A DNA stretch of 64,000 bases from Parvibaculaceae bacterium Mf 1.05b.01 (lineage in GTDB: Bacteria; Pseudomonadota; Alphaproteobacteria; Parvibaculales; Parvibaculaceae): contig BAOK01000002.1 of the NCBI GenBank assembly GCA_000509225.1, forward strand, positions 438,496 through 502,495. The letters run 5' to 3'. The position numbers were made by a program, and so were the translations under genes. Each line of letters begins with the position of its first letter. Position 1 is the first letter of the stretch. Shown in pieces: positions 8,906 to 60,428 of the stretch. The notes below the pieces were generated by a model that saw nothing but the letters and a program-made list of their open reading frames with translations, was not told the origin of the DNA and searched no databases.

Positions 8906-10405
8906 ATGGCCAAAGAGCTGCATCACTTTATCAATGGCGCGAAGGTTGCTGGCACGAGTGGCCGGACGCTTGGTGTCTTTAATCCAAACACGGGTGAGGT
9001 CACCGCTCAGACACCGCTTGCAAGTGCCGATGAAGTGCGGGCGGGCATTGCATCTTCTGCCGCCGCCTTTCCTGGCTGGGCCGCCACGAACCCGCAGCGC
9101 CGCGCGCGGGTCATGTTCGACTTCAAACGCCTGCTCGAAGACAATATGAATGAGCTGGCGGAGATGCTTTCCTCTGAACATGGCAAGGTGATCGCCGACA
9201 GTAAGGGCGATATTCAGCGCGGTCTGGAAGTGATCGAGTTTGCCTGTGGCATTCCGCATCTCCAGAAAGGCGAGTTCACGGAAGGCGCTGGTCCGGACAT
9301 CGACATGTATTCCATGCGCCAACCTTTGGGCGTGTGCGCAGGTATCACACCATTCAATTTCCCGGCCATGATCCCCATGTGGATGTTTGGTGTGGCGATC
9401 GCCTGCGGCAACACGTTTGTGTGCAAGCCATCTGAAAAAGACCCGAGCGTGCCACTGCGCCTGGCGGAGCTGTTCATGGAAGCCGGTGCTCCCGCCGGTG
9501 TCCTCAATGTGGTGAATGGGGACAAGGAAGCTGTCGATACGCTTCTGACGGACCCCGCAGTTGAAGCCATCAGCTTTGTCGGCTCCTCGGCCATTGCTGA
9601 ATATATTTATGCAACCGGTGCGGCCCACGGGAAGCGGGTGCAGGCGATGGGTGGCGCGAAGAACCATGCCATCATCATGCCAGACGCAGATCTTGACCGT
9701 GTCGTCGATGATCTTATCGGTGCCGGGTATGGCTCCGCTGGGGAGCGCTGCATGGCGCTTTCGGTTGCAGTACCCGTCGGAAAGGAAACGGGTGACCGGC
9801 TGATTGAGAAGCTCATCCCGCGGGTTGAGAGTCTGAAGGTGGGGCTTTCGACTGATACGGACGCGGACTATGGACCGATGGTCACCGCTGAGCAGCGCGA
9901 CAAGGTCGCGGGCTGGATTGCTCGCGGTGTGGAACAGGGCGCTGATCTGCTCGTTGATGGTCGCGGTTTTGAACTGCAGGGTTATGAAGATGGTTTCTTT
10001 ATCGGTGGGTCGCTCTTTGACAATGTGACGCCGGATATGGATATCTGGAAAGAAGAGATTTTCGGACCCGTTCTGTCAGTTGTGCGCGCCGACACGTTTG
10101 AAGAGGCAGCAAAGTTGCCAAGCGAGCACCAGTACGGGAACGGCGTGGCGATCTTTACCCGTGATGGGGATGCTGCACGTAGTTTTGCGTCGAACGTCAA
10201 TGTGGGCATGGTGGGGATCAACGTGCCGATCCCCGTGCCGCTTGCCTATCACTCATTTGGCGGCTGGAAGCGCTCCGCCTTTGGCGACACGAACCAGCAC
10301 GGCACGGAAGGCGTGAAGTTCTACACCAAGGTGAAGACTGTGACGTCGCGCTGGCCGACCGGCGTCAAAGAAGGCTCCAGCTTCGTCATCCCAACGATGA
10401 AGTAG
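8906..10405 (+). CDS. mmsA: Methylmalonate-semialdehyde dehydrogenase (acylating)
   Basis: Converts methylmalonate or malonate semialdehyde with CoA and NAD+ to propionyl- or acetyl-CoA in valine, beta-alanine and inositol breakdown. The 499-residue protein has the family N-terminus HFINGAKVAGTSGRT and the oxyanion Asn151 in TPFNFPAM. The catalytic Cys282 lies in the CoA-dependent signature GSAGERCMALS, which separates MmsA from ordinary aldehyde dehydrogenases. The start may be ATG 8906 or GTG 8897; neither has a strong ribosome site. It is monocistronic, with a terminator downstream. Confidence 0.92.
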   Translation: MAKELHHFINGAKVAGTSGRTLGVFNPNTGEVTAQTPLASADEVRAGIASSAAAFPGWAATNPQRRARVMFDFKRLLEDNMNELAEMLSSEHGKVIADSKGDIQRGLEVIEFACGIPHLQKGEFTEGAGPDIDMYSMRQPLGVCAGITPFNFPAMIPMWMFGVAIACGNTFVCKPSEKDPSVPLRLAELFMEAGAPAGVLNVVNGDKEAVDTLLTDPAVEAISFVGSSAIAEYIYATGAAHGKRVQAMGGAKNHAIIMPDADLDRVVDDLIGAGYGSAGERCMALSVAVPVGKETGDRLIEKLIPRVESLKVGLSTDTDADYGPMVTAEQRDKVAGWIARGVEQGADLLVDGRGFELQGYEDGFFIGGSLFDNVTPDMDIWKEEIFGPVLSVVRADTFEEAAKLPSEHQYGNGVAIFTRDGDAARSFASNVNVGMVGINVPIPVPLAYHSFGGWKRSAFGDTNQHGTEGVKFYTKVKTVTSRWPTGVKEGSSFVIPTMK

Positions 10406-12647: not shown

Positions 12648-13766
12648 ATGACAGACGGCCCGGTTCAGAAGTATCGCGCACTGACAGATGGTGGGGATAT
12701 TGCCCACGATCCCGCGCAGGAACGCGCCGTGCGCAACCTGCAACGGCTGCACGATGCGCTGAGTGATTGGCGTCCCGGCTTAAAGACAGGTCGGCTGCGC
12801 TTTCTGGGCCTTGGTCAGCCGGTCAGCCCTCCTGAAGGTATATATCTCTGGGGCGATGTGGGCCGGGGCAAATCCATGCTGATGGATATGTTCTTTGAGA
12901 CCGCCCCTGTTGCTCAGAAGCGCCGGGTGCATTTTCACGAGTTCATGGCGGAAACCCATGAGCGGATCTTCGCATGGCGCAAACGAGAGAAGGCGGGACA
13001 GGCCAAGGGCGATGATCCGATCCTGCCTGTGGCCTCTCAGATCGCGCGTGAAGCGACCCTGCTCTGCTTCGATGAGTTTCAGGTTCACGATATCGCGGAT
13101 GCGTCAATTCTCGGGCGGTTATTTACCCGGTTGTTTGAGCTGGGCGTGGTCGTGGTCGCCACCTCCAACAGGGCGCCGTCTGGCCTCTATGAAGGCGGGC
13201 TCAACCGCCATCGTTTCCTGCCGTTTATCGATCTCGTTGAGCAGGCCATGGAGGTGGTGCCGCTGGATAGTGATACGGATTACCGGCTCGACCGCATGAA
13301 CGGCATGCCTGTCTATTACGTGCCGCTTGATATGGGCGCGGATCGGAAAATGGATGCCTGTTTCGATAGCCTGACAAACAATCTCAAACCCAAGCCACGA
13401 ACACTTGCGGTCAAAGGCCGCGCGGTTGACGTCCCACAAGCGGTGCATGACGTTGCGCGCTTCAATTTCTCGGATCTTTGCGCGAAGCCATTGGGCGCTT
13501 CTGACTATCTGAAGATCGCGGAATGTTTCAGCACGGTCTTCATTGATCACATCCCCGAACTCAGTGCCGCCAACAGGAACGAAGCCAAGCGTTTCGTTAC
13601 ACTCATTGATGCCTTCTATGAAAGAAAGGTGCGGCTGGTGGCGTCTGCTGCCGTTGAGCCGCATGCGCTTTACAAAAGCGGTGATGGCAGCTTTGAATTT
13701 GAGCGGACGGTTTCAAGGCTGATGGAGATGCAGAGCGCAGACTATCTGGATGCTCACAATCCGTGA
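12648..13766 (+). CDS. zapE: Cell division ATPase ZapE (AFG1-like)
   Basis: A 372-residue AFG1/ZapE P-loop ATPase. In E. coli ZapE associates with the FtsZ ring and modulates constriction; mitochondrial AFG1 assists protein turnover. Walker A is GDVGRGKS (69-76) and Walker B LLCFDEFQV (138-146). The AFG1 signature HFHEFM (95-100) is present. Placement before mdh-sucCD is a frequent alphaproteobacterial arrangement. The start at 12648 has no strong ribosome site but gives the normal N-terminus with the YRALTDGGDIAHDPAQ region. Confidence 0.92.
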   Translation: MTDGPVQKYRALTDGGDIAHDPAQERAVRNLQRLHDALSDWRPGLKTGRLRFLGLGQPVSPPEGIYLWGDVGRGKSMLMDMFFETAPVAQKRRVHFHEFMAETHERIFAWRKREKAGQAKGDDPILPVASQIAREATLLCFDEFQVHDIADASILGRLFTRLFELGVVVVATSNRAPSGLYEGGLNRHRFLPFIDLVEQAMEVVPLDSDTDYRLDRMNGMPVYYVPLDMGADRKMDACFDSLTNNLKPKPRTLAVKGRAVDVPQAVHDVARFNFSDLCAKPLGASDYLKIAECFSTVFIDHIPELSAANRNEAKRFVTLIDAFYERKVRLVASAAVEPHALYKSGDGSFEFERTVSRLMEMQSADYLDAHNP

Positions 13767-51893: not shown

Positions 51894-52409
51894 CTACCAG
51901 TTGTCTTTCAGGTCTTCCCAGAGATGACGGTTTGTTGTGACGTCGTAGCGCTCAACCTCAGCGTCGCGTGCAAGGCAGAAAACCTTGCTTTCGCCGGTCA
52001 CCTTGAAACCACTGCGTTCCAACACAATGCCTGACGCAGGATTGTCTTTGAAGAAAGACGCGCCGAGGTCATGCATGTGTTCTGTCTCAAAGAGGTAGGA
52101 GACGAAAGCGCGGGATGCTTCTGTCATGACGCCTTTGCCCCAAAAAGGTTTGCCCAGCCAGTAGCCGTACTCCTGCTCCTGGGCGATGCAACCAGCTAGG
52201 GCGCCCTCCACCTCGATTGCACAGATGATGTCAGGGGAGGCATCATGGCTTGCGATCCATTGATCAGCCATCTCCCGTGTGTAGGGGTAAGGTACGCGGG
52301 TGAGTTTGGAGCAGATATCCCAGTCACCCACATATTCCGTGACGAGAGCTGCGTCCTCTGGCTCAAAAGTGCGGAGACGCAAGCGGTCGGTGGTCAGGAT
52401 CGTGGTCAT
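51894..52409 (-). CDS. GNAT acetyltransferase, copy 2
   Basis: A 171-residue GNAT of the same subfamily as its neighbours: TDRLRLRTFEPEDAALVTEYVGDWD, then YGYWLGKPFWGKGVMTEASRAF, NPASGIVLERSGF and the shared ending VFCLARDAEVERYDV. The ATG at 52409 overlaps the upstream gene's stop as ATGA. A longer reading from 52649 lies entirely over that gene and is not credible. Close similarity of the tail to copy 3 (FCLARDEELD) shows these two arose by tandem duplication. Confidence 0.83.
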   Translation of the reverse strand: MTTILTTDRLRLRTFEPEDAALVTEYVGDWDICSKLTRVPYPYTREMADQWIASHDASPDIICAIEVEGALAGCIAQEQEYGYWLGKPFWGKGVMTEASRAFVSYLFETEHMHDLGASFFKDNPASGIVLERSGFKVTGESKVFCLARDAEVERYDVTTNRHLWEDLKDNW

Positions 52410-52957
52410 TGTGCGCTTTCCCGGTGCTGTTGGGCTGTCAGTTCCAGCACGATGCAGTCTAGCTCTTCGTCGCGGGCGAGACAGAAGCGTTTGTCTTCGC
52501 CGACTTCCTCGAAACCAACTTTTTTGAGGACCCGACCAGAGGCAGGGTTGGCCTTGAAATGACCTGCTGCGAGGCGTTCGACACCTAGAATGTCGAAGGC
52601 GAATTCGACCAGAACACGCGTCGCCTCTGAGGCTATGCCTTTGCCCCAATAGGGTTCCCCGATCCAGTAGCCGATCTCCATAGAGCCGCTTTCGGTCATG
52701 CTGAGACCGATTGTGCCCACAAGTCCGGGCTTTTTTGTTTCAATGGCAAATGGCCAGCTGTCTCCAGCGGCCCGGCGTTCCTTGTGACCGGCGATCCATT
52801 CTTCTGCCGCGTCTTTGGGGTAGGGATGAGGGATGCGCGCCACCATTGACGCCACATTCCAGTTGCTGACGAGTTCCGTCACGCGTGGTGCGTCGTCCAA
52901 TGTGAAGGGGCGCAGCGTCAGTTTTTCGCCTGCAAGGCTTAGTGTTTCGGCAATCAT
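52406..52957 (-). CDS. GNAT acetyltransferase, copy 3
   Basis: A 183-residue GNAT: KLTLRPFTLDDAPRVTELVSNW near the N-terminus, EIGYWIGEPYWGKGIASEATRV for acetyl-CoA binding, NPASGRVLKKVGF, and FCLARDEELD at the end. It starts the run of three GNAT genes downstream of rpmA, after a strong terminator. The three genes therefore need a promoter within 52958-53003 or limited read-through. AGGAGGGTCTC before the start codon (minus strand) is a good ribosome site. Confidence 0.85.
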   Translation of the reverse strand: MIAETLSLAGEKLTLRPFTLDDAPRVTELVSNWNVASMVARIPHPYPKDAAEEWIAGHKERRAAGDSWPFAIETKKPGLVGTIGLSMTESGSMEIGYWIGEPYWGKGIASEATRVLVEFAFDILGVERLAAGHFKANPASGRVLKKVGFEEVGEDKRFCLARDEELDCIVLELTAQQHRESAQ

Positions 52958-53945: not shown

Positions 53946-54854
53946 TTACGCCTGTTTTTCGGCAGGGCCGCTATTGGAGACGGCCTCCAGAAGTTCTGCT
54001 GATCCAAATGCGGAGCCTGAGCTTTTGACCCCGAGAGAGAATTCTGGCGGGACTACCTCAGGCCCCTCACCGGCCGGCAGCGGCGGGGTGAAATAGCCCA
54101 GGGCATAGGAGCCCATAGCATAGCCGAGCAGTGCCTGAAGCTCCGGATCGAAGTCTTTGGCGATCTCAGGTGGGCAGGATAGATACTGGTTCTCCTCCTG
54201 CCTGAGCCAGCCCAGCGTATAAGTGATGTTAACGCCGGCCCGGTCCCCGTTAGATTTGTTGGCTCCGCCGCCATGGAAAACGGACCCTGTGTAGATTAGG
54301 ACCGACCCCGCGGACATTTCGGCATAGCCAATTTCGTCAGGTTGCGGCACGCGGTCATCCGGCCAATCAATGGAACCAGGCACAACCTGCGTCGCCCCAT
54401 TTTCCTTCGTAAAGTCCGTTGCGGCCCAGATGGTGTTGAGCTGTGGCTCAATTCCTTGCAGATACTTGCCCCAGGCCCAGCGATCGCGGTGGATGGCCTG
54501 CTCGGGCTGTCCGGGCTTGATGCGGATCACCTGGGTCAGGTGAAGCTGATAGGCCTCGCAATTTGGCAGTAGAAAGTCTGCGACTGCGCCGCGAATGTTC
54601 TCGTTCATGACCATTTCCCGACACATGGCCGAACGGGCAACCAAAGCCCCCGTCCTGGTTGTATGGCGACCGGTGAAATCGTCGCGGCCTTCCTCTGTGG
54701 CGTCAACATAGGGGCCGATTTCAGCATTCAGGGTGGCGACCTGCTCAGGGCTCAATACATCTTTCAAAATGACCGCGCCGTCGCGATTGATGACGGCCAT
54801 AATCTCATCTTTGGTGGCCGTTGCCGGCAGCGTTTCGACTTTGGGTGTGGTCAT
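53946..54854 (-). CDS. Phytanoyl-CoA dioxygenase family protein
   Basis: A 302-residue Fe(II)/2-oxoglutarate-dependent oxygenase of the PhyH type. The facial triad fits His122 and Asp124 (HRD) with His194 (VFHGGGANKS), and Arg205 may bind 2-oxoglutarate. Many bacterial PhyH proteins hydroxylate lipids or natural products, and the substrate is unknown here. Its ATG overlaps the upstream TetR stop by 4 bases, so regulator and enzyme share a transcript. The GST gene on the other side of the TetR promoter may belong to the same function. Confidence 0.85.
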   Translation of the reverse strand: MTTPKVETLPATATKDEIMAVINRDGAVILKDVLSPEQVATLNAEIGPYVDATEEGRDDFTGRHTTRTGALVARSAMCREMVMNENIRGAVADFLLPNCEAYQLHLTQVIRIKPGQPEQAIHRDRWAWGKYLQGIEPQLNTIWAATDFTKENGATQVVPGSIDWPDDRVPQPDEIGYAEMSAGSVLIYTGSVFHGGGANKSNGDRAGVNITYTLGWLRQEENQYLSCPPEIAKDFDPELQALLGYAMGSYALGYFTPPLPAGEGPEVVPPEFSLGVKSSGSAFGSAELLEAVSNSGPAEKQA

Positions 54855-55438
54855 AGGATTTCCTCCACTCTCATTGTGTCGCCCAGCAATGAGCGAAGCA
54901 TCAGGTTCAGGTGATCGAGTTGTTTTTGAGCGGGCCAGCCATTTGGATCGAGGGTCGCTCGAACCAGGAGGCCGTCGACAATGGCGATGATGGCGTCTGC
55001 CAGCATGGCAAGACGTTCTTTCGGCGCGCTGCTCTCTTTTGACAGTCGGACAACGAGACTTGATTGAAACTCGTCGTAATATTGCCGGTGAATGTCGGCG
55101 AGGGTGTCGCTGGTGAGTGCCTGGTCAAAAAAGGCTAGCCAGACGCGTGCCGCCAACTGCCCGTCTTCATCCAGAGGCAGAAAGGCCGCGGTGGCTTCGA
55201 ACAGGCTTCCTGCAGCCTCGTTTCCGCGATGGTGGGCCTGGGCAATGACTTCTTCCAGGGCGGCGGCAATCAGTTGGTCTTTATCATTGAAATAGTGGGT
55301 GAGGCTTCCGGTGGTGACACCTGCGACGCGGGCAACATCCACAAGCCGGACAGCATCCAAGCCCTGTTTCCCAATGACGTGGATGGCGGCTTCAGCAAAG
55401 GCGCGGCGTCTTTCTGTATGGTCGACTTTTTTTGGCAT
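54851..55438 (-). CDS. TetR-family regulator (BetI-like)
   Basis: A 195-residue TetR regulator: RRRAFAEAAIHVIGKQGLDAV, then VARVAGVTTGSLTHYFNDKDQL with the typical recognition helix. The ligand domain resembles BetI-type (TetR_C_6) proteins: LPLDEDGQLAARVWLAFFDQA. ATG 55438 lies 7 bases after a TATAAT, so the message may be leaderless. A longer reading from 55555 crosses the promoter and is rejected. It likely represses itself, the PhyH gene and perhaps the divergent GST. Confidence 0.85.
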   Translation of the reverse strand: MPKKVDHTERRRAFAEAAIHVIGKQGLDAVRLVDVARVAGVTTGSLTHYFNDKDQLIAAALEEVIAQAHHRGNEAAGSLFEATAAFLPLDEDGQLAARVWLAFFDQALTSDTLADIHRQYYDEFQSSLVVRLSKESSAPKERLAMLADAIIAIVDGLLVRATLDPNGWPAQKQLDHLNLMLRSLLGDTMRVEEIL

Positions 55439-55445
55439 AATGGTG

Positions 55446-55535
55446 ATTATATAAAAAATACGACCGCGCGCAAGATGAATGACCTGGTGCAGGTTGATAT
55501 CAGGCTTATGGTACCCAAGTTCCATTTTCGAACTT
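55446..55535. promoter_or_regulatory. Divergent control region with two dyads
   Basis: Minus-strand promoter TTGCGC (plus 55468-55473), 16-base spacer, TATAAT (plus 55446-55451) drives tetR-phyH. Two dyads lie between it and the GST gene: ACCTG-gtg-CAGGT (55482-55494) and AAGTTC/GAACTT (55517-55522, 55530-55535). Either could be the TetR operator; the second is nearest the GST start. Confidence 0.5.
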
Positions 55536-55554
55536 ATGTACAGAGAGCAATCCA

Positions 55555-56370
55555 ATGGCTGATCTTCGTCTCTTCTCCTATCTGCCGAACCCCCGTATCT
55601 ACAAAGCGACCGTCACTGCGCGGCTCTGTGATGTTGAGGTGGATGTGCGTGGCGCGAAACCTCGCGAGCTTGCTGATTGGCTTTGGGATGCAGATGCCCG
55701 GCCGTTGACCGATGCGGACAGGCAAGACGGGTCGCCGACAATGCGGGAGGCCAGGACTGGTTTTGCCGGCGTGCTTCATAAGACCGATGCATTTCTGGAG
55801 GCTCATCCTTTTGGCACGGTGCCCGCAGCCTTCAGTCCGGACGGCAAGGTGGGTATCTTTGAATCCAACAGTATTGCGAGGGCCGTAGCTCGGCTTTCCA
55901 AAAACGATCACCTGATCTATGGGCGAGACGCGTATGAAGCGTCGCGGATCGATAGTTTTCTGGATGTCAGCCTGGTCTTTGCCCGTGACACGCAGAAATA
56001 TCTTTTAGCGCTGACTGGTAAATCGATATCGCAGGATCTCTATGACGCGACTGAAAAAGCTGTCGACACTTATATGACCGGCATTGAAAGTGCTTTAGAT
56101 GGTCGCGCTTACCTTGTCGGCGATGATGTCTCGCTTGCAGATGTCTGCTTTGCCGCAGAGATTGTTGAATTTGCCCTGTCTCACTACAACCGTTCGGTTC
56201 TCGAAGCGGCCGGGCTGGTTCCCTTGTTTGATGAGAACCTCAAGGAGCGCTTTCCCCGCGCAATGGCTCATCTGAGTTCCTGTCTTGAGCATAGGGCGTT
56301 TGCCCCTGATCTCGGTGCGCATTACGCACAGATCTTGGATCGTACAGAGACAGGCAACCTGCGGGCATGA
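55555..56370 (+). CDS. Glutathione S-transferase family protein
   Basis: A 271-residue GST-fold protein: thioredoxin-like N-domain (DLRLFSYLPNPRIYKATVTARL), then FGTVPAAFSPDGKVGIFESNSIARAV with the glutathione-site Glu-Ser, and an all-helical C-domain (about 105-250). The layout resembles eEF1B-gamma-like GSTs. Which electrophile it handles is unknown. ATG 55555 follows GAGAGCAATCCA, only a weak ribosome site. It is divergent from tetR-phyH and ends at a strong hairpin. Confidence 0.85.
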   Translation: MADLRLFSYLPNPRIYKATVTARLCDVEVDVRGAKPRELADWLWDADARPLTDADRQDGSPTMREARTGFAGVLHKTDAFLEAHPFGTVPAAFSPDGKVGIFESNSIARAVARLSKNDHLIYGRDAYEASRIDSFLDVSLVFARDTQKYLLALTGKSISQDLYDATEKAVDTYMTGIESALDGRAYLVGDDVSLADVCFAAEIVEFALSHYNRSVLEAAGLVPLFDENLKERFPRAMAHLSSCLEHRAFAPDLGAHYAQILDRTETGNLRA

Positions 56371-56398
56371 ATTTCTGGATGGTTAGCCAAAAAGTAGT

Positions 56399-56429
56399 GG
56401 GCCGGAGGTGCTTGCGACTCCTCCGGCCC
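56399..56429 (+). terminator. Strong hairpin after the GST gene
   Basis: GGGCCGGAGG (56399-56408) and CCTCCGGCCC (56420-56429) make a perfect 10-bp stem. AACCTAAT rather than a T tract follows, so it may block exonucleases or terminate only partly. Confidence 0.6.
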
Positions 56430-56548
56430 AACCTAATAAAACATAGACCCAAGGGGTGAGGATGCTGACCGGCCAGAAGGAAACTGTGCCGACAGGGGCC
56501 TAGTGCTCACCAGGTGCTGCTAACACCGTCAGCAACACGATCACCGTA

Positions 56549-56596
56549 TGTGGGAAAAAATCCCACGTCAACAAAAATGTGGGTAGTTTTCCCACA
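56549..56596 (+). promoter_or_regulatory. Two TGTGGG dyads before the DUF6502 gene
   Basis: Dyad 1 has TGTGGGA (56549-56555) against TCCCACG (56561-56567). Dyad 2 has TGTGGG (56578-56583) against CCCACA (56591-56596). All four half-sites share GTGGG and the dyad starts are 29 bases apart. They end 22 bases before the gene. A possible -10, GATAGT (56605-56610), lies just beyond, so a protein bound here could repress. Confidence 0.55.
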
Positions 56597-56618
56597 AAGT
56601 TTCGGATAGTCTCCAAAT

Positions 56619-57464
56619 ATGGGGGAAATCCTGGAAAAAGATGGGCCAACACGGCCGCTTCTCGGCGCAGTTCGCACCCTATTGCGACCGCTCGTCCGCG
56701 GGCTGGTGCGCCGGGGTGTCCAGCTGCCTCAGATTGTTGAAGAGCTGAAGGCGCTTTATGTTGCTGCTGCACACCAAGAGGCGGCGAAGACGGGACGGGT
56801 GACCCAGAGTGCCATCAGTGTGATGAGTGGCGTTCACCGCAAGGATGTGAAGCGTCTTTTGGAGAGTGCCAGTGACGCACCTCGCCCACCGAGTGCAGCG
56901 TCAATGGGGTCGAAGCTTATCGGGATCTGGATGGGGCGTGCGCCCTTCGCGCAAGATGATGGCAGCCCGCTTCCCTTGTATGAAAAACGGTCTGACGGAT
57001 CGCCCAGCTTTGAGGAGCTTGTGGGTGAAGTGAGCCAGGATGTGCGGTCCCGAGCTGTGCTGGATGATTGGCTCCGGCTCAATGTGGTGTTGCGAAGAGA
57101 TGATGGTTTTGTCGAGCTGAATACGGAAGCGTTCGCGACGCCGGAAGCAGAAGTGGAAGCACTTCACTTTTTTGGTCGGAACCTTCGCGACCATGTATCG
57201 GCTGGTCTGCATAACCTTGAAGGGCAGGACCCACGTTTTATTGATCGGGCAACGTTCTATTGGGGTCTCACGGATTCTTCCATTGAGAAGTTGCGACTGC
57301 TTGCGCAGGAGCTTGGTGCGGAAGCCGTTCGTGAAGCCAACAAGCAGGCATTGGAGCTTGCGACAGAGGACCGGGAGCGGGGCGACGGTCAAAACCGAAT
57401 GACGTTTGGCGTCTATTTTTATGCAGAGCAGGATGAGCCTGAAAACAGGGAGGGCGAGGGCTGA
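56619..57464 (+). CDS. DUF6502 family protein
   Basis: A 281-residue soluble protein of the DUF6502 group; function unknown. The N-terminal part (about 10-85) is helical and basic. It contains VTQSAISVMSGVHRKDVKRLLES (about 66-88), which looks like a helix-turn-helix, so DNA binding is plausible. The C-terminal half (100-270) is helical and acidic. No Shine-Dalgarno sequence is seen before ATG 56619. Its TGA overlaps the lipoprotein ATG by one base, so the two are translationally coupled. The dyads upstream suggest the pair is regulated, perhaps by this protein. Confidence 0.7.
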   Translation: MGEILEKDGPTRPLLGAVRTLLRPLVRGLVRRGVQLPQIVEELKALYVAAAHQEAAKTGRVTQSAISVMSGVHRKDVKRLLESASDAPRPPSAASMGSKLIGIWMGRAPFAQDDGSPLPLYEKRSDGSPSFEELVGEVSQDVRSRAVLDDWLRLNVVLRRDDGFVELNTEAFATPEAEVEALHFFGRNLRDHVSAGLHNLEGQDPRFIDRATFYWGLTDSSIEKLRLLAQELGAEAVREANKQALELATEDRERGDGQNRMTFGVYFYAEQDEPENREGEG

Positions 57465-59089
57465 TGAAAATCCGTGTACTCACTCTCCTTCTTGTTGCCA
57501 GCGTCATCTCCGGATGCGCCGGGCTCGGATCCGTTGCTATGGCACCGTCTGGTACCTCATCGCCGGACGCGGGTGTTGGTGGCACGGGCTATACCGATGT
57601 TGATGGGGCCGACCGTGACCGCGACGAAGGTGTGGGTGGGACCGGATTTGTCTCAGATGTTGCGCAGGCAAGTGGTGGCGACGAAGGTGTTGGCGGCACC
57701 GGCATTTTTGGGGTCATCACTGCATTTGGCAGCATTGTCGTTAACGGCGTGCATATCGACTATGAAGACGAGACCCCGGTTGTTGTGGATGGTGTTGAGG
57801 GCACGCCAGACGATTTTGCTATCGGTCAAGTTGTGGCTGTTGAAGCGCGACCTATGGGTGAGCGGTATCAAGCTAAGTTGGTTGAAGTTCAACACGCTGC
57901 CTTGGGGCCGGTGAGTGATGTGGACGAGGCGGCTCGCACCATCACTGTACTCGGCCAGACCATCCAGGTCGCAGAGACCGATCGTCTGCCATTCATCGAT
58001 GAATGGGTGAGGGTTAGTGGTTTGCGGGGACCGGATGAGCAGGTTGTTGCAACGCGTATTGACTCAGTGCCAGCCTCGCGCGGCGCATTTGTTCGCGGTG
58101 TTGCCCTCTCTGCCGACGGGGAAGGGTTGACGCTCGGTGGATTGCGGTTCGACCGTCCGTTCATCAATGGACGCACCATCGAGATAGGCGATGAGATTCT
58201 GCTTCGTGGGGTTTTCCGGGCGCGCGCGTTTGAAGTCACTGATTTTGTTAAAGCGCCGAGAGATCCTTTTGGCGGGCGCATGTCGGATCTGTTGGTTCAG
58301 GGTTTTGTGGCGTCGAATGCCTCTGGGCTCAACTATGTTGCAGGGCATAACTGGACGCTGCCCGAAGGATTGTCTCAGCGTTTCACCGGTGAAAGATTGC
58401 CTGCAGCGCTCTTTAGAGGGCGTTGGCTTTCAGATGAGATGTCCATCAATCCACAGCCGCATATTCAAATTCCGGGCCTTCTGCGCGATATGCCTTGGGC
58501 GTTGGAAGGGCAAGCTTTTCAAGCAGGAGATATCCCGGACCTGCTGCGAGGCCAGATGCAGGCGAAGGGCCATGACCCGCTTACGATCGACCCAACCACT
58601 CTTCCCAATGTTGAGCAGGTAAGAGCCCTGGTGACAGCGAAGGGGCTGCCTAGTGGATTCCTAAATGCGGCCCAGCCTCTCACAGCTGATCAGCTTTCCG
58701 TTCTTATGGAGATGGGAGGTGCTGACGAAACAGCCGAAGGCATTCAGCGGTTTGATGCTGAGCGTTTCGGTCTCTTCCTTGAACGTCATGAAGCCATCAG
58801 AGAGGTGATCGCAGAAGGTGAATTCGACTCAGCGCAAATGCCACAACTCCAAGCAGTAGAGATGCGTTTGCGGGAGGCGGGCATTGACCCTTCAAAGTTC
58901 GTTGGTGCTCGGCTTGAGTTAGCAGCAGTTGTCGGATTGCTCAGACTGCGGCATGCGGTTGAGCTTGAAGGTTTTGATCCCAAATCCTTGCCACCCGCCA
59001 CGCGTGCACGGCTTAGAGACCTTCTTACGGATCGCGGCGTTCTGCCAGCCCAACTGCCTGCGGCGGTGCGCGCAGCGCCAGCTCCTTAG
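57464..59089 (+). CDS. DUF5666-type lipoprotein with GVGGTG repeats
   Basis: A 541-residue lipoprotein: signal peptide with lipobox ISGC (Cys18), so it is anchored in an envelope membrane. Three GVGGTG motifs start at residues 37, 56 and 75, an exact 19-residue period. Next come IFGVITAFGSIVVNGVHIDYE (79-99) and a run of short beta-rich OB-like repeats (about 85-275) of the DUF5666 type. The last 250 residues are helical and Leu/Ala rich, ending in AAVRAAPAP. Function is unknown. It is coupled to the DUF6502 gene. Confidence 0.75.
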   Translation: MKIRVLTLLLVASVISGCAGLGSVAMAPSGTSSPDAGVGGTGYTDVDGADRDRDEGVGGTGFVSDVAQASGGDEGVGGTGIFGVITAFGSIVVNGVHIDYEDETPVVVDGVEGTPDDFAIGQVVAVEARPMGERYQAKLVEVQHAALGPVSDVDEAARTITVLGQTIQVAETDRLPFIDEWVRVSGLRGPDEQVVATRIDSVPASRGAFVRGVALSADGEGLTLGGLRFDRPFINGRTIEIGDEILLRGVFRARAFEVTDFVKAPRDPFGGRMSDLLVQGFVASNASGLNYVAGHNWTLPEGLSQRFTGERLPAALFRGRWLSDEMSINPQPHIQIPGLLRDMPWALEGQAFQAGDIPDLLRGQMQAKGHDPLTIDPTTLPNVEQVRALVTAKGLPSGFLNAAQPLTADQLSVLMEMGGADETAEGIQRFDAERFGLFLERHEAIREVIAEGEFDSAQMPQLQAVEMRLREAGIDPSKFVGARLELAAVVGLLRLRHAVELEGFDPKSLPPATRARLRDLLTDRGVLPAQLPAAVRAAPAP

Positions 59090-59117: not shown

Positions 59118-59870
59118 TTAGTTGCTTGCAGGTGGCTCTGAGCTTTCAATGCTCTGTTGGAACGATCGAACAATCCCAAAGCCAACAAAGTAGAGGGAGG
59201 AAAAGAGCCAGGCTGCAAAGGCGGCTGGTTCACTTTCCAGGAGTGGCGCGTCGGTTTTTGCAATCAGTAGCCAGGTGCTGCTGAGACCCCAGGTTGCTGT
59301 CATGAAAATTGTGATCAGACGCAGTCGCACAACCCGAAAGGGATGAATGAATTTCAGGCGGGTAAAGGTCAGGACACCAAGAAAAGCGATCACGACAATA
59401 TTGGTCATCTGTCCGCTATCTAGAAGGAAGAAACAGAGCACCACCAGGTTCCAGGTCGCGGGAAAGCCTTCGAAATAATTATCGTTGGTTTTCATGTCCC
59501 GATTGCCGAAGCAATAAAGGGCGGTCACCATGACAAAACTGGCCGCCGCGAGCCCCCATCCCTCCGGCACCATATTCAGCTGCCAGATTATCAGGGCCGG
59601 GATAGCTGTGTAGGTGAGGTAATCGATCACCAGGTCGAGAATGGCTCCGTCAAACCGAGGGGTGTAGCGGGTCACTTCAAAGCGCCGTGCTAGCGGGCCG
59701 TCCAGTCCGTCGATGATGAGTGCCAGGCCCAGCCATAAAAGAGCGGAGCGTCCGTCACCGGCAAAAGTTGCTTCTATCGCCAGCAGACCCGGGATGACCC
59801 CGGAGGCAGTAAAGAGGTGGATCGCCCAGGCGCGCGCGCGGCGCAGCGGCGTGTGTTCTTCGCGTTGCAT
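59118..59870 (-). CDS. pcs: Phosphatidylcholine synthase
   Basis: Condenses CDP-diacylglycerol with choline to make phosphatidylcholine in the inner membrane, a pathway found mainly in alphaproteobacteria and plant or animal associates. The 250-residue protein has about eight membrane helices. Its CDP-alcohol phosphatidyltransferase signature lies in DGLDGPLARR...FDGAILDLVID. NDNYFEGFPATWN is typical of Pcs. ATG 59870, with GGAG just upstream, is preferred to a TTG at 59897. Choline must be imported or available in the habitat. Confidence 0.9.
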   Translation of the reverse strand: MQREEHTPLRRARAWAIHLFTASGVIPGLLAIEATFAGDGRSALLWLGLALIIDGLDGPLARRFEVTRYTPRFDGAILDLVIDYLTYTAIPALIIWQLNMVPEGWGLAAASFVMVTALYCFGNRDMKTNDNYFEGFPATWNLVVLCFFLLDSGQMTNIVVIAFLGVLTFTRLKFIHPFRVVRLRLITIFMTATWGLSSTWLLIAKTDAPLLESEPAAFAAWLFSSLYFVGFGIVRSFQQSIESSEPPASN

Positions 59871-59919
59871 GCGCTCCAAACTAAAGAGAAAGGCCAAACA
59901 TCGCCAGCGCGGGTTTTGG

Positions 59920-60417
59920 TCAGCCTGTCGCGATCAAACGATCTGAAGGCCTCGGGCCGTTGCTTAATGCGCGGTCAATCAGGGAAATCCCTTGGGAGAC
60001 TTCCGCCCAGGATTTCTCGCCCACCTTTTCGACAAACTCCGCCTGCGCGCGTTCCCAATGAGGAGTCGCTGTCCTAAGGCGTTTTGCTCCTTCAGGTGTC
60101 AGGGACAGGTTGCGCACACGGGCGTCTTTTTCATCTGGAATGCTGTCAACGAGGCCTGCTTTGATGAGAGGCTTCAGGTTGCGGGTCAACGTTGTTCGAT
60201 CCATCACAAGTTCTTCTGCCAGCACATAGACGGGCACCTGGCCGAAGCCGGAAATGGCATTCATCAGGGTGAATTGGGTGATCCGCAGACCAGCTTCCGA
60301 GAGATGGTGGTCGTAGAGCTGTGTCACAGCCCGTGTCATTTTGCGGACGGCAAAACAGGCGCAAGACGACCCAATGTGAATGGCTTGCTCAGTGGTTTTA
60401 TTTTGCTGTGTGGTCAT
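59920..60417 (-). CDS. MarR-family regulator
   Basis: A 165-residue winged-helix MarR protein: GLRITQFTLMNAISGFGQVPVYVLAEELVMDRTTLTRNLKPL is the DNA-binding core, and DEKDARVRNLSLTPEGAKR the wing. Two N-terminal cysteines in SSCACFAVRK are common in this MarR subgroup and could sense redox state. ATG 60417 is preferred over TTG 60426. It starts 11 bases after the Fe-S/SCP2 gene and is probably cotranscribed. The dyad at 61808-61829 is its likely operator. Confidence 0.85.
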   Translation of the reverse strand: MTTQQNKTTEQAIHIGSSCACFAVRKMTRAVTQLYDHHLSEAGLRITQFTLMNAISGFGQVPVYVLAEELVMDRTTLTRNLKPLIKAGLVDSIPDEKDARVRNLSLTPEGAKRLRTATPHWERAQAEFVEKVGEKSWAEVSQGISLIDRALSNGPRPSDRLIATG

Positions 60418-60428
60418 GCGGTCCAACC

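Follow-up and report, generated by a model that had tools for sequence, protein, structure and literature searches.

A conserved promoter palindrome suggests that DUF6502 proteins autoregulate operons for exported proteins with a short glycine motif

We analysed a 64,000-nucleotide stretch of the Parvibaculaceae bacterium Mf 1.05b.01 genome (contig BAOK01000002.1, positions 438,496 to 502,495; hereafter the window), centring on a two-gene unit in which a gene of the family DUF6502 (PF20112) is preceded by two palindromic dyads and followed by a lipoprotein gene. Our results make it likely that DUF6502 is a helix-turn-helix (HTH) protein that regulates its own small operon through the palindrome GTGGGAAwwwTTCCCAC. 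The dyads accompany DUF6502 genes across loci, their spacing differs between two clades of the regulator, and the association of regulator, dyad and a short motif in the adjacent gene product is nearly exclusive. This provides a probable function and DNA target for a regulator family without a described function, present in 4-17 percent of genomes in our class, phylum and order samples, and makes its partner nameable by a motif that annotation had missed.

Results

The DUF6502 gene (56619-57464, plus strand) encodes 281 amino acids and matches PF20112 in Pfam over residues 12-272 at 83.1 bits (E 1.9e-23) against a curated cut-off of 27, which makes its product a member of the family; it is the sole DUF6502 gene in the 3.82-Mb, two-contig genome. 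An earlier note on this DNA had described two genes of unknown function coupled by a one-base overlap, the second a large lipoprotein, behind two dyads with four GTGGG half-sites. All of this holds. The stop codon TGA (57462-57464) shares one base with the ATG (57464-57466) of the partner gene (57464-59089, plus strand; identified from its open reading frame (ORF), Pfam and a structural model), whose 541-residue product starts with a signal peptide (57464-57517) carrying a lipobox-like ISGC (Cys 18), assigned by inspection of the sequence and not by a signal-peptide predictor. Directly upstream of the DUF6502 gene lie the candidate operators, two GTGGG-N7-CCCAC dyads: GTGGGAAAAAATCCCAC at 56550-56566 (site score 27.2) and GTGGGTAGTTTTCCCAC at 56579-56595 (site score 21.8), the latter ending 23 nucleotides (nt) before the start codon.

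In the partner, three copies of GVGGTG, at residues 37-42 (57572-57589), 56-61 (57629-57646) and 75-80 (57686-57703), come before a DUF5666 beta domain and, behind it, a helical tail. The copies sit in a stretch predicted to be disordered (residues 18-75 have a predicted local distance difference test score (pLDDT) below 50), and in the partner alignment G75 is invariant, with G56, G58, G59, T60 and G61 of the second copy and G77, G78, T79 and G80 of the third near-invariant. The DUF5666 match (PF18914) reaches 39.3 bits over the whole protein in Pfam (E 8.2e-10; cut-off 27), and a single stretch scores 23.1 bits, under the cut-off, in the genome search; the best-matching stretch spans residues 148-200 (57905-58063) of a predicted beta-rich region at about residues 78-330.

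A single GTGGG-N7-CCCAC is unremarkable by chance, because the genome holds five such sites and equally five of the reversed control pattern. The unusual part is the pairing and position: two of the five lie 29 base pairs (bp) apart, both ahead of the DUF6502 gene, and another (window position 12691) falls inside a long ORF. The extended form GTGGGA-N5-TCCCAC occurs once in the genome, at DUF6502, and its reversed control also once.

As the earlier note had suggested, we searched the upstream regions of other DUF6502 genes for the same dyads. Our named set holds the 80 best of 571 confirmed relatives; their identity to the window protein is 36-89%, and they come from Alpha-, Beta- and Gammaproteobacteria, Magnetococcales, and metagenome-assembled genomes labelled Deltaproteobacteria or otherwise; the consensus upstream of these loci is the palindrome given above. 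TGGG-N7-CCCA occurs 82 times in 26,490 upstream bases compared with 27 times in the 889,778 other bases of these loci, a 102-fold enrichment, and its reversed control 0 and 14 times, respectively. The strict form lies within 300 bp upstream in 50 of the 80 loci. With a weight matrix derived from the strict sites, a site was found within 400 bp upstream in 76 loci, and two or more in 49, against 4 of 731 windows drawn at random from the same loci; this conservation led us to reject a chance origin of the dyads. Clustered at 70% protein identity, the loci fall into 60 groups, 57 of which have a site. Of the 40 loci from the first round of whole-genome searches, 29 also score. In 39 of the 76 loci the proximal dyad ends 15-24 nt ahead of the in-frame ATG or GTG that follows it, an approximate count since the starts were chosen by rule. 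At whole-genome scale, GTGGGA-N5-TCCCAC is present in 21 of 37 DUF6502-positive genomes (30 sites), and by a hand count from coordinates 22 of these sites, spread over 17 genomes, fall in the 250 bp ahead of DUF6502. Among 36 DUF6502-negative genomes, all of the same class, it occurs in 1 and the control in 10.

Some sites lie elsewhere. In L078, L085, L107 and L115 a second dyad immediately precedes the lipoprotein gene that comes next downstream. Four genomes (G014, G247, G413 and G513) have further sites at a distance from DUF6502; these are not evidently ahead of genes for G[TS]G-motif proteins, so a wider regulon is unsupported. In one of these genomes (L179:1930-1987, G247:C38), the dyads GTGGGGATTTTTCCCAC and GTGGGAGGTTTTCCCAC lie 41 bp apart behind a GntR-type regulator ORF, far from DUF6502; they are possibly a second DUF6502 target or an unrelated operator.

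The spacing of the dyad varies with the regulator. We aligned 190 sequences (189 members, which include the window's copy a second time, plus the window protein itself) and scored 420 bp upstream of each for TGGG-N7-CCCA and TGGG-N8-CCCA: 95 have N7 alone, 24 have N8 alone and 1 has both. In a tree from which the DNA-binding region was left out, the spacing label changes twice (shuffled labels: mean 22.1, minimum 18), and the two spacings, judged from this tree, correspond to two DUF6502 clades. Two genomes, G513 and G934, each hold paralogues of both clades, each paralogue with its own spacing. At position 73, in the predicted recognition region, His accompanies N7 in 91 cases against 2, and other residues accompany N8 in 22 against 4. 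We rejected the idea that this residue sets the spacing by itself: His stands with N8 in L224 and Tyr with N7 in both L200 and L203, and these exceptions follow the clade. Such clade-specific spacing indicates that operator and regulator evolved together, which is our main argument for DUF6502 itself reading the dyads.

The earlier note had also pointed to an HTH-like segment in DUF6502, and structure prediction agrees. A model built from 75 sequences (pLDDT 87.7, predicted template modelling score 0.74) contains an HTH at residues 61-83 (56799-56867; helices 63-70 and 74-83, with support from the alignment and matches to HTH proteins), a winged-helix-like part at 92-175 and a C-terminal helical region at 178-271 (57150-57431) with long helices at 178-200 and 219-254. 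Residues 36-81 superpose on the HTH of the TetR-family structure 3cwr at 1.6 A over 45 residues, and G71, H73, R74 and K75 are invariant across the 75 relatives. Residues 92-175 resemble IclR-type winged-helix domains (Z 6.3-6.5 over about 70 residues). TetR, IclR, sigma region 4 and TrpR HTH modules superpose locally, over 44-73 residues; the rest of DUF6502 differs from them.

For the whole chain, the first two Foldseek matches in the PDB are full-length HetR, the cyanobacterial regulator: 4hri (E 0.014, probability 0.95) and 3qod (E 0.020, probability 0.93), with template modelling (TM) scores of 0.33-0.35. A second alignment method places HetR entries at ranks 1, 3, 8, 24 and 26 (Z 6.1-6.9, root-mean-square deviation about 11 A over 208-220 residues), where these Z values are common and tied with those of short HTH matches. 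Sequence comparison gave no similarity in five attempts. hmmsearch retrieved no HetR chain at E up to 10; a Pfam scan of 75 DUF6502 members listed neither Peptidase_S48 (PF03574) nor HetR_C (PF18460) at E up to 10; and hhalign, run twice against a thin two-sequence HetR profile, returned a probability of 0.1. HetR relatives sought to deepen that profile were found neither in plasmids nor in viral contigs, and a phage search gave one irrelevant match (E 0.6). A likeness of flap and hood to HetR seen by eye was dropped when global and local profile alignment with shuffles and 216 unrelated ORFs placed HetR inside the null. On these sequence grounds we do not class DUF6502 as HetR, nor as a demonstrated homologue.

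What marks the partner is a short motif more than DUF5666, which is replaceable: some partners without DUF5666 keep the motif. Among the 78 adjacent ORFs downstream, 68 contain G.GGTG; among 589 other ORFs of 150 amino acids or more, 7 do, and 6 of those 7 look, on reading, like further members of the system. In the wider form G[IVLMF]xG[TS]G, the motif is found in 145 of 176 loci, with Thr 375 times and Ser 26 times at the exchangeable position; x is mostly Gly, and Arg, Glu, Ser and others appear mainly in the N8 clade. Up to 13 copies occur in a predicted disordered stretch behind the signal peptide. Clustering by sequence separates 47 loci with a DUF5666 type from 17 with a short membrane-anchored type. 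In L109 the motifs precede a FecR domain, and one same-family genome (L183:2678-3902, G143:C14) has a lipoprotein of about 100 amino acids with one GIGGTG and no DUF5666, which may be a minimal precursor or come from a truncated gene. Within these loci DUF5666 is one among several bodies joined to the motif. The earlier note had proposed testing the co-occurrence of the two families: an exported partner is the rule and DUF5666 is found in 15 of 18 DUF6502-positive genomes against 0 of 22 negative ones (11 of 13 against 0 of 22 within the class), but DUF5666 is missing from some partners. A two-sided variant was also observed in L078, L107 and L115, where DUF6502 faces, at about -0.7 kilobases (kb), a divergent gene for a lipoprotein with one GIGGTG, and a further dyad precedes the downstream lipoprotein gene.

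Paralogues differ in the motif as well as in the operator. In 7 of 12 genomes with multiple DUF6502 genes, the third motif residue differs between them, as in GIEGTG and GIGGTG. We considered a pairing of charges between residue x and the C-terminal domain, where 10 of the 14 top columns fall in residues 178-281; this was set aside as only a hint, because Arg is represented by one family only and Glu/Asp by 5 loci from three families.

DUF6502 was found in 12 of 289 genomes of a class sample, 21 of 398 of a phylum sample and 9 of 40 of a family sample, and in 38 of 250 and 41 of 244 genomes of order samples for two other members; these samples overlap in part. One genome, G1039, has eight DUF6502 matches, two with an internal TGA, a local expansion.

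Discussion

We propose that DUF6502, presumably as a dimer, binds the palindrome in its promoter and keeps the operon repressed until a signal relieves it. The operon product would be an exported, usually lipid- or membrane-anchored protein with one or several copies of G[IVLM]xG[TS]G. Since the proximal dyad typically ends 15-24 nt before the start codon, the core promoter, transcription start or leader must coincide with it in part, an arrangement that favours repression lifted by a signal; DUF6502 is probably a repressor. The earlier note had read the unit as an autoregulated envelope system, and dyad conservation together with the HTH supports the autoregulation; the action in the envelope and the sign of the regulation we infer. 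Two findings had been named there as refuting, DUF6502 genes elsewhere without dyads and lipoprotein partner, or a predicted fold without any DNA-binding element; both were looked for and neither was obtained.

Several observations weigh against this proposal. The raw number of GTGGGA-N5-TCCCAC sites in the 37 positive genomes is no higher than that of the reversed control (30 sites in 21 genomes against 31 in 20), so we rejected genome-wide counts as proof: the pattern is special in these genomes by location and not by number. Four of the 80 loci (L066, L073, L103 and L114) have no site within 400 bp, with farther sites at 537 bp in L103 and 667 bp in L114, and 70 of the 190 aligned members have neither exact spacing within 420 bp. 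A scan of the window region for sigma-70-type promoters found none. In the tree the difference in spacing is essentially a single event; the Fisher p of 7e-18 for its association with residue 73 ignores relatedness and therefore overstates the case. Ten of the 78 adjacent ORFs have no G.GGTG (L052, L061, L077, L078, L085, L094, L097, L103, L107 and L115); among them L094 has GGSG and L052 a degenerate copy, the loci L078, L103, L107 and L115 hold a G.GGTG gene at another place, and in L061 a GGDEF-like ORF stands there instead. Finally, the 80-locus set leans to the window's own clade, for which reason the later samples were added.

Two explanations would take the dyads away from DUF6502 altogether. 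They might act in RNA, as attenuation or stability hairpins: the 86-nt stretch folds at -31.5 kcal/mol (z -5.2) and two terminator-like matches overlap the dyads. Any palindrome pair folds well, however, and the leader behind the proximal dyad is only 15-24 nt in many loci. Pairing is broken in 23 of 26 non-strict sites, and 1 is changed on both arms, which indicates that the bases are kept and not the pairing, and we consider this explanation very unlikely. Another regulator might read the dyads with DUF6502 as a bystander under its control, and genes for a MarR (59920-60426) and a TetR (54851-55555) regulator do lie nearby. Neighbouring regulators are absent from the recurrent gene families, though, while the dyads follow DUF6502 across classes, are nearly absent from genomes that do not have it (1 of 36) and differ in spacing between paralogues of one genome; we give this explanation hardly any credence.

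If DUF6502 is the autoregulator, what it senses allows two accounts. In the plainer one, to which we give a nearly even chance, DUF6502 is an ordinary one-component repressor that senses a small metabolite or a stress, the partner serves the envelope as a structural or binding lipoprotein, and the glycine motifs are linkers or a docking site for a barrel. The IclR-like residues 92-175 suit this account, as does an outer-membrane barrel gene in 47 of the 80 loci (L051 to L125; Phenol_MetA_deg, PF13557, in 2 of 3 scanned), though not in the window. Weak oligonucleotide/oligosaccharide-binding (OB)-like matches of DUF5666 (3go5, probability 0.41) point the same way; the partner fold has no confident PDB match. 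A linker would not be expected, however, as the sole element common to otherwise unrelated partners. A single query, run without a positive control and hence not informative, turned up no barrel relative close to the window gene or elsewhere in its genome, and the barrel was set aside as a required part. The other account is a feedback loop of the HetR-PatX type, in which the partner is in part a precursor: G[IVLM]xG[TS]G peptides would be released, re-enter cells, bind the C-terminal domain of DUF6502 and alter its grip on the dyads. HetR leads the Foldseek matches and ranks high in the second alignment, and the partner motif shares the G[ST]G core and the Ser/Thr exchange with the HetR ligands ERGSGR (PMC4649674) and HRGTGR (PMC12756182). 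The motif's repetition, up to 13 times in a predicted disordered stretch behind a signal peptide, is also consistent with a precursor, as are its persistence across partners that otherwise differ (DUF5666, short membrane-anchored, FecR in L109, L183) and its variation between paralogues in 7 of 12 genomes. Against this, HetR similarity by sequence is absent, HetR E253, whose mutation abolishes PatS6 binding (PMC4649674), has no evident counterpart in a by-eye alignment, and the window partner has GVGGTG and no literal RG[ST]GR, with relatives of one family carrying GIRGTGS; glycine-rich motifs can be structural. Moreover, 31 of 176 loci have no strict motif in the adjacent ORF, and the motif variants follow the clade and hence are not independent events. 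We regard peptide feedback as possible but rather unlikely.

The earlier note could match the unit to no described system. That statement can now be sharpened, in that the nearest described system is cyanobacterial HetR with PatS and PatX. The parallel consists of three partial resemblances, in fold rank, in a G/C-armed dyad and in a G[ST]G partner, each weak alone. The best fold match of DUF6502 is HetR, a regulator of similar length (about 280-300 residues) with an N-terminal HTH and two further domains, and the C-terminal helices of DUF6502 (178-271) might be the counterpart of its hood. The HetR protein binds its own promoter, with which the position of the DUF6502 dyads is consistent, and its hetP operator is a 17-bp palindrome with GGG/CCC arms, GAGGGGTCTAACCCCTC (PMC4192349), as the DUF6502 dyads are GGG/CCC-armed. 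By this analogy, DUF6502 may work most like HetR, whose own and target promoters likewise carry a GGG/CCC dyad. The differences are substantial. HetR needs GGG-N5-CCC (PMC4649674), whereas DUF6502 operators have N7 or N8 between these arms. PatX is exported and then cleaved before HRGTGR acts (PMC12756182); the DUF6502 partner is exported too but, unlike PatS, HetN and PatX, it is large, often multi-copy and usually carries DUF5666, and it shares one operon with its regulator, unlike the HetR system. HetR is mainly an activator in the cited papers, so the sign of DUF6502 may differ.

The hosts differ as well: DUF6502 occurs in unicellular and filamentous Pseudomonadota and HetR in cyanobacteria, and PMC12756182 restricts heterocyst-patterning logic to filamentous cyanobacteria. 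Tentatively, and with more doubt than confidence, we suggest that Pseudomonadota may hold a HetR-like family with an exported peptide signal, forming a self-tuned and possibly cell-to-cell loop whose paralogues are insulated by motif variants and operator spacings. If the parallel were true, ordinary proteobacteria would possess an equivalent of heterocyst-patterning logic, and the question of where HetR came from could be tested. In PubMed Central, which leaves subscription journals mostly outside, we found no paper naming DUF6502 or PF20112 and none on HetR outside cyanobacteria or a HetR-like protein elsewhere; DUF5666 is mentioned there by four papers, in passing only.

Other observations

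A defence or phage origin of the unit was rejected, as neither the DUF6502 protein nor its partner matched any PADLOC or PHROGs profile (0 families at E up to 0.1). The CDP-alcohol phosphatidyltransferase gene on the opposite strand (59118-59897) was considered as a third gene of the unit and dropped; it recurs only in the window's own relatives. In some Pseudohongiella-type loci, genes for a tetratricopeptide repeat (TPR)-barrel protein (9 loci) and a FecR protein (6 loci) follow, with a further dyad ahead of them in L060. In that locus (L060:7919-12786), the DUF6502 pair is followed by a convergent outer-membrane barrel gene, a dyad at 9065, a TPR-barrel gene and a FecR-domain gene.

Elsewhere in the window, a perfect 11-bp inverted repeat, TGGGCCGGAGG/CCTCCGGCCCA, with an 11-nt loop lies at 56398-56430 after a glutathione S-transferase (GST)-like gene and is probably a terminator-like hairpin without a T run. 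Two adjacent ORFs on the minus strand (51894-52957) resemble tandem, related GNAT acetyltransferases.

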